DNA from: Syncephalis plumigaleata
Lineage: Eukaryota > Zoopagomycota > Zoopagomycetes > Zoopagales > Piptocephalidaceae
Direction: 5' to 3'
Assembly: GCA_025201365.1 (NCBI GenBank)
Contig: JAIXMF010000085.1
Coordinates: 1-43,538, forward strand
DNA length: 43,538 nt
The translations under genes and the position numbers were made by a program. Numbering within the stretch: the stretch's first letter is position 1; every line of letters begins with the position of its first letter. This document shows, piece by piece, positions 14,483-38,664 of this stretch. The notes below the pieces were generated by a model. That model saw only the letters and a program-made list of their open reading frames with translations, ran no database searches and was not told the DNA's origin.

Positions 14483-16215
14483 TTATTGTAATAGTAGAGA
14501 TGCAGCCACACCAAGAGCAGCACCCCATTGAACATCTAACAGGAATACAGACATAAAGGTGATCATCCAGATGGACCACGCCTTTCTATCAGATGACCAT
14601 AGTGTTTGTACTTGTTGCAATTGCTGCAGTAGACTACGACACGCTAACAGAATGACTGCAGCAAGTACCGTACGTGGTAACGAGTAGAATAATGGTGCAA
14701 GCCATAGTAGCGATAGTACAACGACAACCACACAGATCATGCTGACTATCTGTGTTTTACCACCGGTAGTTGCAGTCACGGCAGAACGAGTTAATGAACC
14801 ACAGGTGAGATAGCTAGAAAAGCATGCCCCCACTATACTAGCTAGACCGGTGGCTAATAGTTCTTGATTCTCATTAATGGTATAATCAAACTGATGTGCA
14901 AATGTCTTGGCAATGGATAAAGAGATCACGGCACCGATAGATGCGATAATAATGGCAGGCCATAAAAGTGAACGAATTGTCATCCAACTATCGAATATAC
15001 TGAATGGTAGCGATACTGGTGGTAGTCCAGTGGGTACATGTCCCACAACAGCAATACCATAATGTTCCTTCCAGTTCAGTAGTGATGACAATAAAATAGC
15101 AATGACAATGGTTAATAATACATCAGGAATGGGTAGATCAACGAGTTGTTCACTAATTCGTGATATCATACTAGCACGTCTAATACTAATGCCACCACTA
15201 TCTCTTAGTAAAGAGGTCGTTTCATCGAGATGTCTACCTATACGACGATGTATGGCACTACTACTCAGATGCGATGATAACAACGAGGATGACGATTGTT
15301 GTCGCCATAGTCTACGCTTCCGTTCTAATTGATTAAGCAATAGCATGAGGATGAGTGCAGACACACCGATCAACATGGTTGGCAGATGAATATTACGCCA
15401 ATGCATTAGAACGTATCTCCATGTGTGTAATAGACCGGCAAATGTTCTCGATTCATCGGGAATCACCAATCCAAATAGATTACGTAGTTGCGATGTACAT
15501 ATATGAAAGGCGGATGCCGTAGTGAATGCCGTAATGAATGACGATGGCATTAATCGATCGGAATATCTACCGATTCTTAGTAGACTCATAATCAATTGAA
15601 CGATGCCCACAAGAAATGACAACAATAGTGCAATATGAATGTATTCACTATCATCGTCAGATTCATCTAGACTAGTAAGCGGCGACAATAGTAGCAATGA
15701 TCGTTTGTCATCCTTGTATTGACTCATCATGTACTGACTAACTGCTTGACCTAATAGTAGAGATGTTCTAACAAACCAATAATCGAGTGCATATATCCAT
15801 TAATGGCCGTGTTTCATATACAATTAAATCATCTACACTTACAAGGCAAATGTACCGGCATTCATGTGTCGACTAGTGGATAAGCAGGCATAAATTATCA
15901 CCGGTACTGCCGATGTATATAACCCGTAAACAGGTGGTAAACCTAGTATTTTGCAATGAGCAACTAATACAAATGTTTATTTGACAACTTACCTGCAAGC
16001 ATAGCATATGCCATACTTTGTGGCACGACAATAGTGGCTAATGCTGGTATACATGCATGGATATGCTTTGATGAATATAGTGGTTATATGGTAGCATAGT
16101 CAAACGACGATTACTTACTCAGACCCGATATCAAGTCGGGTATACCCTGACGCTTCCAATTATAGTTAGGCAACCAACCGACTATAGGAACTATTCGCTG
16201 AATAGTTGACGACAT
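14483..16215 (-). CDS. SulP/SLC26 anion transporter lacking a STAS domain
   Basis: Four minus-strand exons (16119-16215, 15993-16043, 15842/15843-15942, 14483-15767) encode 510 residues. The start MSSTIQRIVPIVGWLPNYNW leads to the SulP signature VVPQSMAYAMLAGLPPVYGL. Multiple membrane helices follow, including SIFDSWMTIRSLLWP, IGAVISLSIAKTF, NQELLATGLASIVGACFSSY and SLTRSAVTATTGGKTQ. A poorly conserved Ser/Arg-rich insertion lies near residues 240-290. SulP proteins normally carry a cytoplasmic STAS domain after DxxxGAALGVxxSL; here the reading frame stops five residues beyond that point (LLLQ*), and the convergent NOSIP gene ends only 128 bp away. Likely substrate is sulfate or another oxyanion. 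It is not possible to infer direction or selectivity. Confidence 0.9.
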
Positions 16216-16461: not shown

Positions 16462-17984
16462 ATGGAGCAGAGCGATGAGATGACGGCACTTCAGGTAATA
16501 TACCGTAAACAATAGAATAGCAAGGAAATACTAATATTTGATATTGCTACCGTGGAATAAAAGGCCATTTACGACGATGCGTTTGAATATGGACGTAATG
16601 CCGCTAATGAATACACAGGCAAATTAACTATCGACGTGAATATACCTGCAGAAGCATCGATATTGGTGGCAGGATCGATTGCATCGTCGGATACTAGTGA
16701 TACTGATGTGGTAACACGTTCCATATCAGCATTACCGCCTGTGACATTGTTCTTCACGTTGCCGGTCACGTATCCTGAACATGCAGCACCACAATTAACT
16801 ATTGCTTGTGTCTGGCTATCGAGTCAACAGCGTACGGAATTAGAACAACAAATGCACGCGATATGGGAACAGGAACCTGATGTTGTAAGTCTATCGAGAA
16901 ATGATAATGATGATGAAGAGCAAAAACTAACATGTATATCATTCATTAGATATTGTTCCATTGTGCCGATCTATTACAGAATATATTCGATAGACTTTGT
17001 ATTGTATTTCCTTTGGTTCTCTCCGATGGTAATCTAGAATGAACAAGCAATATCAATCTACTACTAGTACTAATATGATTGTTAATAGATATACTGCAAA
17101 TCATCATTAATAATGATCGTGTTAAACAGCAAAAACGTTTCGATGAAACTCGACATGATTGCAGTATTTGCTTGGAGAGTAAGCTGGGTACAGCTTGTTA
17201 CACGTTAAGTTGCGGTCATGTCTTTTGTCGAGCGTGTCTCGTTGACTTTCTCACTCTACATATCAATGAGGGGAATGTTGCCGCGGTACAGTGTCCCGAT
17301 AGTGCTTGTACCAAGCATGGTATCAAATTACTAGATAGCGATATTCAAGCACTAGTCAGTGCCAAGCTCTATGAACGCTACAATGATATAATGGAGAAAC
17401 GTGCACTCGATGTAGATCCGTCGATTACGTGGTGTCCACGTCGCACCTGTCAAGCACCCGCACGTAAAGATGCATCCTACGAGAAATTGGCCGTGTGTCG
17501 CAAGTGCAAGTTTGCTTTCTGCTTCTATTGTCGTCGATCATGGCATGGTAGCGGGCAGTTCTGCGCCATCGATAATCATCAGCGTATCGCGCAAGAGTAC
17601 AACGATGCCAGTGATGATATGAAGCGTTACATGGAGTTGAAATATGGTGCCGGTACAATTCAGCGCATTCTAGCCGATGCTGAACAGGCACGAGAAACGA
17701 ATCGTTGGCTTGAAGAGAACACGACGTGTTGTCCGACGTGTCATTCTAGCATTCAAAAGTCGTTCGGTTGCAATCACATGGAATGTTCTGTATGCGGTAC
17801 ACACTTCTGCTACCTTTGCGGTTACTATTTAACATCGAGCAGTGCACTGGATCACTTCAACGGTCAAAGTGGCAAGTGTCGTAATCGATTGTTTGATAAT
17901 CTAGGCGCGGATCCTGAACAATTACTAGCTGATCTAATACAGAATCAGTTCAATGAAGATGTTCCAGATCCATCATTGACGTAG
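16462..17984 (+). CDS. RBR-type E3 ubiquitin ligase with RWD domain (RNF14/Itt1-like)
   Basis: Four exons (16462-16494, 16564-16884, 16950-17028, 17089-17984) encode 442 residues. An N-terminal RWD domain (ALQAIYDDAFEYG ... PVTLFFTLPVTYPEHAAPQL) is followed by RING1 (CSICLE ... LSCGHVFCRACL), the IBR domain (CPRRTCQAPAR ... CRKCKFAFCFYCRRSWHG) and RING2 (CCPTCHSSIQKSFGCNHMEC ... FCYLCGYYL). The Cys of FGCNHM is the expected catalytic thioester residue. RNF14 relatives act on stalled translation factors and crosslinked RNA-protein damage in animals and on translation termination in yeast. The promoter is shared with the divergent SulP gene (246 bp between starts). Confidence 0.95.
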
Positions 17985-34503: not shown

Positions 34504-35503
34504 TCAGCTTGCATTATTACTCAATTGCAATTATGGCAGAATTAGCCAATCTACAATCATATCAATTTGCATTTATAACATCTGTATTGCACTAGTAGCA
34601 TTATAATAAATAGTATTGCTTTAATAATCTTGCATGATGTGCTAGCTAGTAGGTGTCCTATACGTGCATACATATCTCGTTCTTGAATGTGTACAATCTG
34701 AATCTAAATCCTCTTGTCGTCTTTCCTATTAAGTAAGCTGAAAAGCTCAGTGTTACTTTTTTCGATGATAAAATACGGGGTTTCCAATCAATTAACGCAG
34801 TTAACCTTAACTTTTGCTATTGAAGAATACGTATCCGTTGCAATTACCTCTCTCTCTTTCTCTCTCTTCCCTATTTCACATTTGACTATGTCCTCCGTAA
34901 TTACTTGTATGTGTATCAAATCGTGTTGTCATCACTCGATTCCATGCTGTTGTATCGTTTAAGCATTAAAGTATAGAAATGTAGACGTTGTCTTTGTTCC
35001 TAGCAATACAGCAACACTAGACATAGTTATGACATGTTGTAATCCAAGTGTAATGACAATATGTAGGAAGCATAGTTCTAAGGATACTGACATATGTGAT
35101 GAAATAGCACTCGTGTAATCAATATTCGATGACCTCACTCGATATACAATGCTCATTCATGGTACACGATAAGTAATAAGCATAGCTGGAGTAGAAGAAA
35201 GAATTGAACGATGAATAGAGTAGAAGGATGCCCTATAGCATTACATATTTATTCAATCAATGACCCAGCCATTATTTGATATTTATGTAATAGGACCATG
35301 GATGAATAGACTGAATGATGGACTTGTAGATATATTTCTTGATCCAAGGAATAATGACTTGAATAGCATGGACACAAAAGGGTCTTGCACCAATACATTC
35401 TTGACTTGAATACCTATAATATCTACTTGATGATGTCCTTGTCTTGCTCTAATCATAATGGATTAGTATGGGTATGATTATTTGTTGAATTATTACTTAC
35501 TGC
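34504..35503. other. Convergent intergenic region
   Basis: 3' flanks of the RRM gene (plus) and of the micro-exon gene (minus). Short frames here have no splice or domain support. A CT-rich tract lies at about 34850-34872. Confidence 0.5.
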
Positions 35504-38500
35504 TTAAACCTATCATTCAATTAACGTGTATTGTATTGTGATTAGATCGACGTATCAATGTTAAAAATACTGGCTTACATCCTAGCATCCATGATCATAT
35601 GGGAGTTGCATGCCACACTGTAGTTAGTACTCATTCATACGTTACGGTCAGCGATATTCACTTACATACTATCGTGCGAGAACATAGGTAGATCATGTGC
35701 CGTATTAGTATCAATACATCCATAGGTTGTCATCGGGAATAGTAACTTACGCACTGTTACCCACAAATGTATGGACATCATATGCCATATTATCATTAGT
35801 ACTCATTCATTACAATCAGAATATTGACTTACAGGCTGTTATACAGAAACATATGTGGATTGTGTGGCAATAATGTAGTTAGTACGCCATTCATTACGAT
35901 TGGAATGACAACTTACACCCTATCATACAAAAACACAAGGAAATCATGTGTCATATTATCATTAGTGCTTCATAGGGTACAACCAGAATGATAACTTACA
36001 GACTATCATACAAAAACATACGTATATCATGTGTTATAGTGTGGTTAGTATATCATAGATTATGGTCAGAATGATAACTTACTCCCTATTATGCACAGAC
36101 GTATGGAAATCGTGCGCCACATCATAATTAATTCCTCGTTCATTATGGTTAGAATACTAACTTACGACCTATCATACAGGAATATACGTGGATCATGCGT
36201 CATAGGGGGATTAGTACTCATTCATAGATTACGATTGTAATGATAACTTACGTTCTGTCATACAGGAGCAGATATGGATCATGAGCCACATTGATATTAG
36301 CGTATTTATATTATAATCAAAGTGATTACTTACGGGCTGTTATACACGAGCATAGGTGGGCCATGTGCGATATCATAGTTAGTACATTCATTCATTACGA
36401 CCATAATGGTAACCTACACACTGTTATGGGCAGATACATGTATGGATCGTATGCCACATCATAATTAGTACACCATAGTTTATAAATGGAATGGTTACTT
36501 ACACACTGTCATACCGAGACATACGTATGGATCGCGTGTCATACTACAGTTAGTATCTCGTACATTGGGTTAGAATTATTACTTACTTGCTATTAACAGA
36601 CACATATGGATCGTGTGTCATATTGTGATTAGTACCGCATTCGTTACAATCAGAATGATGACTTACCTCCTGTTTATACACAAACGCAGATGAAGCGTGC
36701 GCCATAATGCAATTAGTACCTCATAGATTACAACCGAAATGGTTACTTACAGTCTACCATACAGGAAATACAAGCAAATCATATGTCATATTATTATTAG
36801 TGCATTGTACAGCATCATCGAAGCAATAACTTACCTCCTATCATACACGAACATATATGGATTCATGTGCCAGATTATAATTAGTATACCACAGTTTATA
36901 ACTGGAATGGTAACTTACCCACTATCATACACAGACATGTGTTAATCATGTACCACGTTATAATTAGTACTCCATTCATTCATTACGGTCAGAATGATTA
37001 CTTACACTCTATCATACAGGAACGTATATGGATCATGTCATATTATAATTAGTATACCACAGTTTATAATCGAAATGTTTACTTACCCACTAGCATACAC
37101 AGACATGTGTTAATCATATACCACGTTATAATTAGTACTCCATCCATTCATTACGGTCCGAATGATTACTTACGACCTATTATACAGGAACGTATATGGA
37201 TCATGTGACATATTAGGATTAGTATACCGTAGATTGTAACCGAAATGCTAACTTACATACTAGCATACACAGACATATGTGGATCGTGTGCCATAGGATG
37301 ATTAGTACATTCATTCATTCATTACGGTCAAAATGATTACTTACATGCTATCATACAGGAACGTATATGGATCATGTCATATTATAATTAGTATACCATA
37401 GATTATTATCGAAATGCTAACTTACATACTAGCATACACAGACATAGGTGTATCGTGTGTCATAGCGTGATTAGTACATTCATTCATTGTAGTCAAAATG
37501 ATAACTTACACCCTGTCATACAGACACATAAGAAAATCGTGTAACACGCTATAATTAGTACCTCATAGGTTACAACCAGAATGATAACTCACGTCCTATC
37601 ATACACGGAATCATGTGCCACGTTACAATTAGTACACTCATTCATTGCAGTCAGAATGATGACTTACACTCTATTATACAAGAACATACGTGGATTGTAT
37701 GCCATATTGTAATTAGTACCTCGTTCATCACAGTCGGAATGATAACTTACACACTGTAATAAACAAGTATGCATGGATGGGTTGGCACATCATAATTAGT
37801 ATACCATGCACTACGATCAGAATGGTAACTTACAGTGGCTTGAAATGGTAATTACATGATTTTAATTTATACTACAATTAGCATAATGCTTGCTATGGTC
37901 AGTAGGATAGCTTACGTTCATGTCCTAACAAATTAGTAGGAAGAATAAACATTACAATGTGATTAACATAGTACTTGTTATGATCAATAAGCTAGCTTAC
38001 CATGTGGTGCTAAAAATTAATAAGTAGAATAAGCATTATAACATGATTAGCATAGTACTTGTTGAAGTCGATGGGATAGCTTACGGCGTGGTCCTAACAA
38101 ATTAATAAGTAGAATAAACATCATAATGTGATTAGCATAGTACTTGTTGAAGTCAATAGAATAGCTTACGGCGTGGTCCTAACAAATTAGCAAGTAGAAT
38201 AAGCATTATAACATGATTAGCATAGTACTTGTTGAAGTCGATAGGATAGCTTACGAGTTTTTCCTAACAAATTTATAGGTGGAATAAACATTGCAACGTG
38301 ATTAACATATGAAAATAACCATTTAATACATATGAACTTACGACCTATCGGTAATCATCGGTAGACAATGAAACAATAGGCTATGATTAGTACATCAATT
38401 GATAGGGTCACGGCCAGACATACCACGACGTTCCAGGGCGGGGCTAGCTTCAACGGCGACCAGACTGGTGATAGCGACAACGGCGACGGCAATAGCGATG

Positions 38501-38517
38501 ATGGCAGAGAACTTCAT
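35504..38517 (-). CDS. Secreted cysteine-rich peptide encoded by a micro-exon array (27 single-codon exons)
   Basis: On the minus strand, exon 1 (38424-38517) encodes a signal peptide (MKFSAIIAIAVAVVAITSLV, AVEA) and SPALERR, a dibasic Kex2-like site. Then come a 3-nt exon (38342-38344), five 9-nt exons (38255-38263, 38170-38178, 38085-38093, 38001-38009, 37916-37924) and a 5-nt exon (37834-37838), followed by 27 exons of 3 nt whose first plus-strand bases are 37751, 37668, 37593, 37510, 37426, 37345, 37257, 37174, 37087, 37006, 36919, 36835, 36751, 36667, 36587, 36503, 36418, 36334, 36252, 36166, 36083, 36000, 35917, 35833, 35751, 35666 and 35579. The terminal exon reads GTT TAA (35504-35509). 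Each is bounded by YAG or AAG and GTAAGT, GTAAGC, GTGAGT or GTAGGT; introns are about 72-85 nt. The 5-nt exon moves the frame from phase 1 to phase 0, so each later exon is one whole codon. Concatenation gives 77 residues: basic GRKTRPRRPRPPHGHEPT, then CSDGYHYVWSWETEQ, CCPNVGSGPCYDV, then stop. Four Cys suggest two disulfides. Likely a secreted effector-like or antimicrobial-like peptide; function is unknown. There is no alternative continuous ORF of comparable sense. Confidence 0.87.
35510..37833 (-). repeat. Tandem array of intron plus single-codon-exon units, about 84-bp period
   Basis: About 28 diverged units, spaced 75-88 bp, each with the minus-strand order YAG, three variable bases, GTAAGT, an ATCATTCTGACC-like segment, TACTAAT, and an ATGATCCATAT-like segment, then TATGATAG. 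TACTAAT is the probable branch site, about 40 nt from the acceptor. The introns are mutually similar, so the array probably grew by unit duplication, while the three bases between acceptor and donor differ from unit to unit. This is an array of introns and is not a satellite. Confidence 0.9.
37839..38341 (-). repeat. Tandem array of 9-nt-exon units, about 80-95-bp period
   Basis: Five units with minus-strand order TTAG, nine coding bases, GTAAGCTATC, a CAACAAGTACTATGCTAAT-like segment and an AATTTGTTAG acceptor. Two neighbouring exons are identical (GACCACGCC). The intron family differs from that of the 84-bp array. Confidence 0.88.
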
Positions 38518-38656: not shown

Positions 38657-38664
38657 TTTATAGC
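38657..38664 (-). promoter_or_regulatory. TATA box of the micro-exon peptide gene
   Basis: CTATAAAT on the minus strand, about 140 bp upstream of the ATG at 38517. The intervening leader is rich in AGAG/CTCT repeats (about 38565-38615). Confidence 0.55.

Follow-up and report, generated by a model that had tools for sequence, protein, structure and literature searches.

The window gene and its exons

The window analysed here is an entire 43.5-kilobase (kb) contig of Syncephalis plumigaleata, which is placed in Zoopagales, and our subject is a gene on its minus strand (38517-35501) that a splice-site parser blind to reading frame divides into 36 coding exons with a coding sequence (CDS) of 234 nucleotides (nt). 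After joining of the exons the frame is open, with 77 codons plus stop from the start ATG at 38517 to the TAA at 35506-35504, and it translates to MKFSAIIAIAVAVVAITSLVAVEASPALERRGRKTRPRRPRPPHGHEPTCSDGYHYVWSWETEQCCPNVGSGPCYDV*, a 77-residue prepropeptide rich in cysteine (Cys). The parsed chain consists of exon 1, GTC, five 9-nt exons, one 5-nt exon, 27 exons of 3 nt and then GTTTAAGCA, and the coding exons remained unchanged after the parser was retrained on 830 introns. With a probability of about 0.92 we regard this as a protein-coding gene of a hypervariable secreted-peptide family whose evolutionary module would be one codon plus one intron, a reading drawn from sequence. The features of the gene are as follows.

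38657..38662, minus strand: TATA box (TATAAA), 145 nt upstream of the ATG, inside the conserved block CTATAAATCAAGCAC
38424..38517, minus strand: exon 1, 94 nt, signal peptide (assigned by eye) and short propeptide ending in RR; ends in phase 1, donor GTATGT
38342..38344, minus strand: exon 2, GTC, 3 nt, phase 1, from the parse
37916..38263, minus strand: five 9-nt exons of phase 1 for a basic proline-rich linker, in tandem units of about 85 base pairs (bp); individually parsed at 38255-38263, 38170-38178, 38085-38093, 38001-38009 and 37916-37924
37834..37838, minus strand: 5-nt exon CCACT, phase 1 to 0; other copies have a 5-nt or 2-nt exon here
35579..37753, minus strand: 27 consecutive single-codon exons reading CSDGYHYVWSWETEQCCPNVGSGPCYD, with introns of 72-85 nt between them
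36835..37428, minus strand: sub-array of 168-bp two-unit duplications, alternating peptide Y-H, Y-V, W-S, W-E
35501..35509, minus strand: terminal coding exon, 9 nt, GTT-TAA-GCA, with the stop codon at 35504-35506
35248..35500, minus strand: short intron in the 3' untranslated region (UTR), with putative boundaries, and the 3' UTR, with AATAAA at 35248-35253

Because the 5-nt exon resets the phase to 0, each later 3-nt exon is one whole codon, and the mature peptide includes the segment CSDGYHYVWSWETEQCC, which spans several of these codon exons. An initial annotation of this DNA had described the same structure from the sequence, and its coordinates, its 27 consecutive units of AG, triplet and GTAAGT, its 36 exons and the TAA in the next exon were all reproduced exactly by the frame-blind parse; its two peptide strings and four Cys are correct against the spliced frame, and its 234-nt CDS and signal peptide with dibasic RR in exon 1 were likewise recovered. 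An 11-nt exon after the stop, proposed by the first parser, was dropped by the trained model.

The parser chains introns through donor, branch site and acceptor and ignores both reading frame and exon content; a strict CTAAY branch requirement ended the parse after one exon, and a relaxed requirement was used. On the minus strand of the window it reaches a score of 853 with 35 exons after exon 1, while the controls give 0 exons on the opposite strand, 1 in the reversed array, 1 in the rest of the window on either strand, and at most 1 (score 11.9 or less) in 200 dinucleotide shuffles. The 830 unique introns of the training set have GT..AG ends, a donor consensus GTAAGT, a length mode of 80 nt and a branch TACTAAY most often 41 nt before AG; in their GT..AG ends, GTAAGT-like donors and CTAAY branches upstream of AG the family introns are ordinary U2-type introns, a fit that describes the set and is no independent test, since the sites were picked using these very signals.

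Moreover, the region of the 9-nt exons is a tandem repeat of period 85, where the introns before the last four exons are mutually 0.79-0.95 identical, and the sub-array at 36835..37428 is a period-168 repeat with 86% matches, where introns two units apart are 0.81-0.95 identical. The protein sequence records these array duplications, as Y-H, Y-V, W-S and W-E lie on successive 168-bp double units.

A dispersed family and the coding evidence

The initial annotation treated the gene as a single case; the gene itself stands, while its isolation does not, as the first 29 nt of exon 1 have 180 matches in the genome at up to 3 mismatches (allelic contigs included) against 0 for the reversed control. 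A search for AG-NNN-GTAAGT arrays elsewhere, which had been proposed as a check, bears this out: the strict consensus ATRMYAG-NNN-GTAAGTNA occurs 1207 times genome-wide against 14 for the reversed control, whereas the same consensus at spacing 4 occurs 5 times (control 21) and at spacing 6 occurs 11 times (control 8). As this consensus captures 407 of the 750 known single-codon exons, the genome total is estimated at about 2200 single-codon exons, alleles included. A protein search of the genome gives at least 150 family matches (150 of 173 candidates scored), and a search with the spliced protein matched 8 deposited records, all of S. plumigaleata. By these matches the window gene is one member of a large dispersed family.

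Loci L001-L062 give 41 distinct copies, alleles included, of which 26 keep an open frame up to the stop of the terminal exon under the trained parse and seven are open but unfinished (L009, L016, L017, L020, L034, L054, L055). The copies follow a common grammar: a few phase-1 exons of 3, 6, 9 or 12 nt, then a 5-nt or 2-nt phase-reset exon, then a stretch of phase-0 exons, most of them one codon each, and finally the exon that carries the stop; GCN follows the stop in most copies that reach one. Beyond exon 1 the parses contain 990 exons, of which 869 are 3 nt long. In 39 of the 41 copies the 300 nt before the ATG contain TATAAA, and the 3' stretch beyond the terminal exon is conserved, with a mean majority frequency of 0.95, 0.88 and 0.70 per successive block of about 100 nt in 20 aligned copies. 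The first-pass model broke the frame in L005, L010, L012, L014 and others, and the model trained on 830 introns recovered the missed 5-nt exon in these four; for L039 and the end of L016 the first model was the better one. The signal exon also heads bodies without a usable donor after exon 1 (L040, L044, L055 on the minus strand, L061, L062), among them the glycine-rich L040; the deposited P0008, rich in Ser, Ala and Val, is another such body.

The absence of stops is evidence that the triplets code. Among the 750 phase-0 single-codon exons of the 41 blind-parsed copies there are 0 stops where about 29 are expected from base composition, and Cys codons number 86 against 46 expected; without five near-duplicate copies (36 copies, 651 exons) there are still 0 stops against about 25 expected, although array units are related by descent and such counts are not independent draws. 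All 869 3-nt exons of any phase are likewise free of stop triplets, as are the 100 listed of the 1207 pattern-only matches in the genome, while 219 of 3960 control intron triplets taken at fixed places after donors are stops. Moreover, a C-x(4-16)-CC-x(7-14)-C framework is found in 17 of the 32 copies that remain when near-duplicates and those with fewer than 8 single-codon exons are excluded (triplets being joined across the 2-nt exon in L010, L019 and L025), while with the codons of each copy put in random order it is seen in 1.1 copies on average and in no more than 6 across 2000 trials. In the remaining 15 copies the peptide is rich in proline, glycine or histidine, the Cys are arranged differently, or the parse ended short; for example L016, which was cut by the second model, has the framework in the first-model parse.

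The array of the window is 98% identical to its counterpart (L004) on the 1.5-megabase contig C318, from which it differs in 1 of 143 downstream exon bases, 45 of 2838 intron bases and 5 of 94 bases of exon 1, and the window contig is probably the second allele of this locus. Several small contigs have near-identical copies of loci on large ones (C368/C318, C186/C362, C129/C223), which would fit an assembly that includes both alleles of a diploid or heterokaryon. The open frame, the exon conservation against C318 and the stop-free paralogues together argue for the secreted-peptide gene with single-codon exons as originally described.

One deposited protein agrees with the parsing of its own array. 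P0001 (BDF22DRAFT_685769, 82 residues) contains NPINGSMDYVYWKPIVPGYWGPIN, and the blind parse of its locus yields the identical string; when threaded onto L016 it occupies 43 exons, of which 40 have 3 nt and 29 are identical to exons in the second parse of L016, which ended before the end of the array. The expectation that gene finders would call such an array non-coding thus fails for at least one relative, as by this threading P0001 fits only a chain of 3-nt exons. Because three of the exons that it omits carry GTAGGT donors, P0001 looks like the product of a gene finder preferring GTAAGT, and with this ab initio look it is not counted as transcript evidence. The uninterrupted P0001 peptide was not found in the genome, an empty answer that is weak.

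Farther afield, seven short open reading frames (ORFs; P0016-P0022, from Joint Genome Institute (JGI) metagenomes or ENA) resemble the family profile, four of them with E values of 3e-5 or lower and the other three weakly, at 8e-3 to 5e-2; P0016, P0018 and P0019 continue into sequence resembling the start of intron 1 (GTSGHGHIN, GMSGHGRIN and GTSGYGYIN; GMSGRDPIN in the window). The full four-Cys peptide occurs in none of the 22 returned proteins. A PDB profile search gave a single match at E 0.48, which was rejected. Scanned with the pattern, the virus collection gave 11 stretches and the prokaryote collection 96, of which 80 were listed; by title they are viral or prokaryotic, and several contain evenly spaced repeats of the match, which by our guess are like clustered regularly interspaced short palindromic repeats (CRISPR). 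In the rest of the window, domain matches mark two ordinary neighbours, and no Rfam match was found in the window at gathering scores.

14483-15730, minus strand: sulfate permease family protein (PF00916)
17079-17984, plus strand: protein with RING and IBR domains (PF01485)

Change of the arrays and competing explanations

Nine pairs of copies were compared for exon and intron divergence; pairs overlap in this and the following comparisons, and all the ratios are indicative. In the four near-identical pairs (L003/L004, L016/L017, L021/L022, L056/L057) 1 of 398 exon bases differs against 155 of 8966 intron bases, which means that codons are preserved better than introns in such pairs, and L007/L009 behave likewise (4 of 131 against 270 of 3188). 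The trend is reversed in L005/L012 (exon 18 of 107, intron 289 of 2601), L041/L042 (10 of 53, 74 of 1143), L001/L002 (5 of 56, 48 of 1162) and L046/L047 (2 of 65, 20 of 1216). Between genes, units with 0-2 differences in 120 flanking bases have a different codon in 8 of 135 pairs, in 4 of them by at least two bases, so that exon divergence is 3.2% against 0.6% in the flanks; this exon excess holds up to 11 flank differences and is reversed at 12-14 (8.6% against 11.0%), and in a looser comparison exon divergence is 3.4 to 5.0 times that of introns in each of the five bins where introns diverge at all. The data do not support simple positive selection acting through point mutations, as among codons changed at a single base 427 of 607 changes alter the amino acid where about 501 are expected, which is constraint; the exon excess therefore comes from multi-base codon replacement, as exchange or reordering of units would give.

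Relatives also differ by whole units of about 83 bp, that is, by whole residues: 162 bp or 2 residues in L046/L047, 168 bp or 2 single-codon exons in L001/L002 (where the terminal exon is also one codon different), and 78 bp or 1 residue in L005/L012. In L021/L022 the downstream exons differ at 0 of 89 bases, the introns at 4.1% and exon 1 at 12 of 94, as if the signal exon had been exchanged by gene conversion.

A mechanism consistent with these data may be proposed. The conserved promoter block and exon 1 lead into a chain of introns of about 80 nt with GTAAGT, CTAAY and YAG, which suit intron definition by their length and strong signals; as an acceptor and a donor 3 nt apart are unlikely to be bound together, the introns would be removed one by one, each step adding one codon. 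Cleavage of a Kex2-like kind after RR would free a peptide of 46 residues with two disulfides. Syncephalis species are mycoparasites, and from this lifestyle the peptide may be secreted towards the host fungus. The tandem unit of intron plus codon, about 83 bp, would be the evolutionary module, which the unit-wise differences show in part: since gain or loss of a unit changes exactly one residue and keeps the frame, the loops between conserved Cys could grow, shrink and change residue by residue. Whether the array is moreover a dedicated diversity generator, combining germ-line gain, loss and exchange of units with codon replacement and isoforms from in-frame skipping, is a further step that we consider rather doubtful; if it were so, thousands of peptide variants would be deployed from some 180 signal-exon copies.

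Several observations weigh against the coding reading. That the array is spliced at all is something we infer from sequence alone. Five of the 41 blind parses ended early or took other sites (L006, L039, L045, L050, L058), and three copies (L010, L019, L025) have a 2-nt exon in mid-array that breaks the frame unless skipped. Among the deposited proteins, P0002 reads into introns, the threading of P0003 ends at residue 74 of 92, a GTAGGT donor follows three of the five exons that P0001 omits or alters relative to the parse, and the 40 exons of 3 nt in P0001 come from our own threading and not from the exon coordinates of the record. Finally, the synonymous codon use of the triplets is unrelated to that of five long ORFs in the window (rho -0.05 over 59 codons), which intron triplets, unlike exon triplets, follow weakly (0.31), with the five ORFs possibly being poor references.

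The synonymous choice is itself lopsided in the 41 copies (TAT 36 and TAC 0, TTT 23 and TTC 1, CCT 53 and CCG 0, CTT 19 and CTC 1), which could reflect few founder units or constraints of splicing. An avoidance of codons ending in AG is not claimed, as it looked strong in the 41 copies but AAG equals AAA (6 and 6) in a genome-wide sample. In the three copies with the 2-nt exon, the triplets after it are still sensible in phase 0 and the last Cys is kept; the 2-nt exon is either skipped or these copies were recently broken.

The mismatch in codon use is one point for the view that the array is a tandem repeat or introner array behind a signal exon, with the triplets as mere spacer and the whole spliced out or untranscribed; it is indeed a tandem repeat of about 83 bp, and an intron-shaped unit would score well for splice sites. 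A spacing preference of 3 could by itself reflect such a repeat, but the absence of stops in 750 triplets could not, and neither the Cys framework, the bookkeeping of phase, nor the better keeping of codons than introns in near-identical pairs is accounted for, so that we give this view almost no credence. It is only slightly less improbable, and still very unlikely, that the window copy is the dead relic of a formerly active family: some members look damaged or hard to parse, as the three copies with 2-nt exons illustrate, but the window copy retains its TATA box and every donor and acceptor, its frame is open and ends in a stop, and compared with its C318 counterpart only 1 of 143 downstream exon bases is different, while 45 of 2838 intron bases are (5 of 94 in exon 1). 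A rival concerning origin only would replace tandem duplication of the intron-codon unit by insertion of introners into an intact coding exon. Introners do fill genes with similar introns, but insertion would be needed between every codon, the intron identity of 0.81-0.95 between units two apart goes along with matching residues (YHYVWSWE), and differences in length between related copies come in complete units; for two mature peptides no uninterrupted form turned up in the genome, an empty answer that shows nothing. We consider this origin improbable.

The rival with the most appreciable chance, though we hold it only tentatively, is a real gene with deliberately incomplete splicing, in which any subset of exons is skipped to give many peptide variants, as proposed for schistosome micro-exon genes; it is compatible with the single-codon coding gene that we prefer. 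As all the single-codon exons are in phase 0, each is skippable without loss of frame and so is any subset, and the donor GTAGGT follows 40 of 86 Cys exons against 13 of 664 exons for other residues, which may mark positional homology of the Cys units or a regulated step; one such donor follows the window Cys exon at 36418-36420. P0001 leaves out some exons with this donor, and downstream of the 2-nt exon in L010, L019 and L025 the codons remain sensible in phase 0, which would fit skipping of that exon. However, the omissions of P0001 may be artefacts of prediction, and the C..CC..C framework together with the conserved codons of near-identical pairs implies that full inclusion is under selection for at least some of the time.

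If the coding gene with single-codon exons is real, each residue of most of the mature peptide lies on a separate exon across a large family, and the spliceosome accurately joins dozens of consecutive 3-nt exons, which bears on the use and order of sites 3 nt apart. Moreover, exon shuffling would become testable at its lower limit of one residue per module, and secreted-peptide families of early-diverging fungi, and perhaps of others, could be overlooked because their coding part resembles a non-coding repeat.

Comparison with known systems

Schistosome micro-exon genes (MEGs) and aphid bicycle genes are nearest in kind to the family, being secreted, fast-evolving and built from microexons. 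A paired-Cys theme occurs in bicycle proteins, and conotoxin precursors have a conserved signal, a short propeptide with a basic cleavage site and a hypervariable Cys-rich mature peptide; to our knowledge, the gene layout of conotoxins shares nothing with codon-exon arrays. In the open-access literature searched, S. plumigaleata itself is named in one paper, reportedly a phylogeny (PMC7865070). As far as we know, the fragmentation of coding sequence seen here would be the finest described, if transcripts confirm it.

As stated in the part of the source available, the exons of schistosome MEGs are of 6-36 bp, symmetric and make up most of the coding region (PMC5825161). The likeness lies in secreted products, which are putative in our family, in short symmetric exons and in a proposed variation by splicing, and exon 1 reads by eye as a signal peptide common to our family; unlike them, the 3-nt exons here fall below that size range, as the initial annotation rightly held in calling MEG exons longer, and the organism is a fungus and not a flatworm. 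Two protein searches gave only S. plumigaleata records and unnamed short ORFs and thus no MEG homologue, by a method based on 5-residue words that would miss distant kin.

The bicycle genes, in the portion of their description consulted, encode putative secreted and rapidly evolving effectors on many microexons of the same phase, with more than 100 microexons in megacycle (PMC9168663). They share with our family a putatively secreted, fast-evolving product on many same-phase microexons, but average about 17 exons with internal ones nearly all of phase 2, whereas the window gene has 36 coding exons, of phase 1 and then phase 0, single codons and near-uniform introns. That spliceosomes can include exons of 1-3 nt is shown by 3-nt microexons in mouse Ncam and Drosophila TnT and 1-nt ones in plant APC11 and VPS55 (PMC8042270, PMC8831610); in the excerpts of these papers they are single, or adjacent as 5 + 12 nt in a rice transcript, while here they run to at least 27 and make most of the mature protein.

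Other candidates were rejected. The likeness to conotoxin (PF02950) is a weak Pfam match of 17.0 bits against a gathering score of 25.1, in 1 of 15 members, and the CBM_14 chitin-binding peritrophin-A domain (PF01607) matches 17 residues in a single member at 15.7 bits, below its gathering score of 22.1. For SP7-like effectors a conserved intron before the repeats is reported, with no microexon array described in the excerpt seen (PMC11333574). According to the abstract of a 2024 Trichoderma paper, no functional microexons had previously been reported from filamentous fungi (PMC11121469), and arrays of 3-nt exons are described nowhere in the open-access literature searched, which does not prove their absence from print. 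Taken together, these comparisons suggest that the gene architecture is probably new as a category, while its function is probably that of another secreted-effector family.

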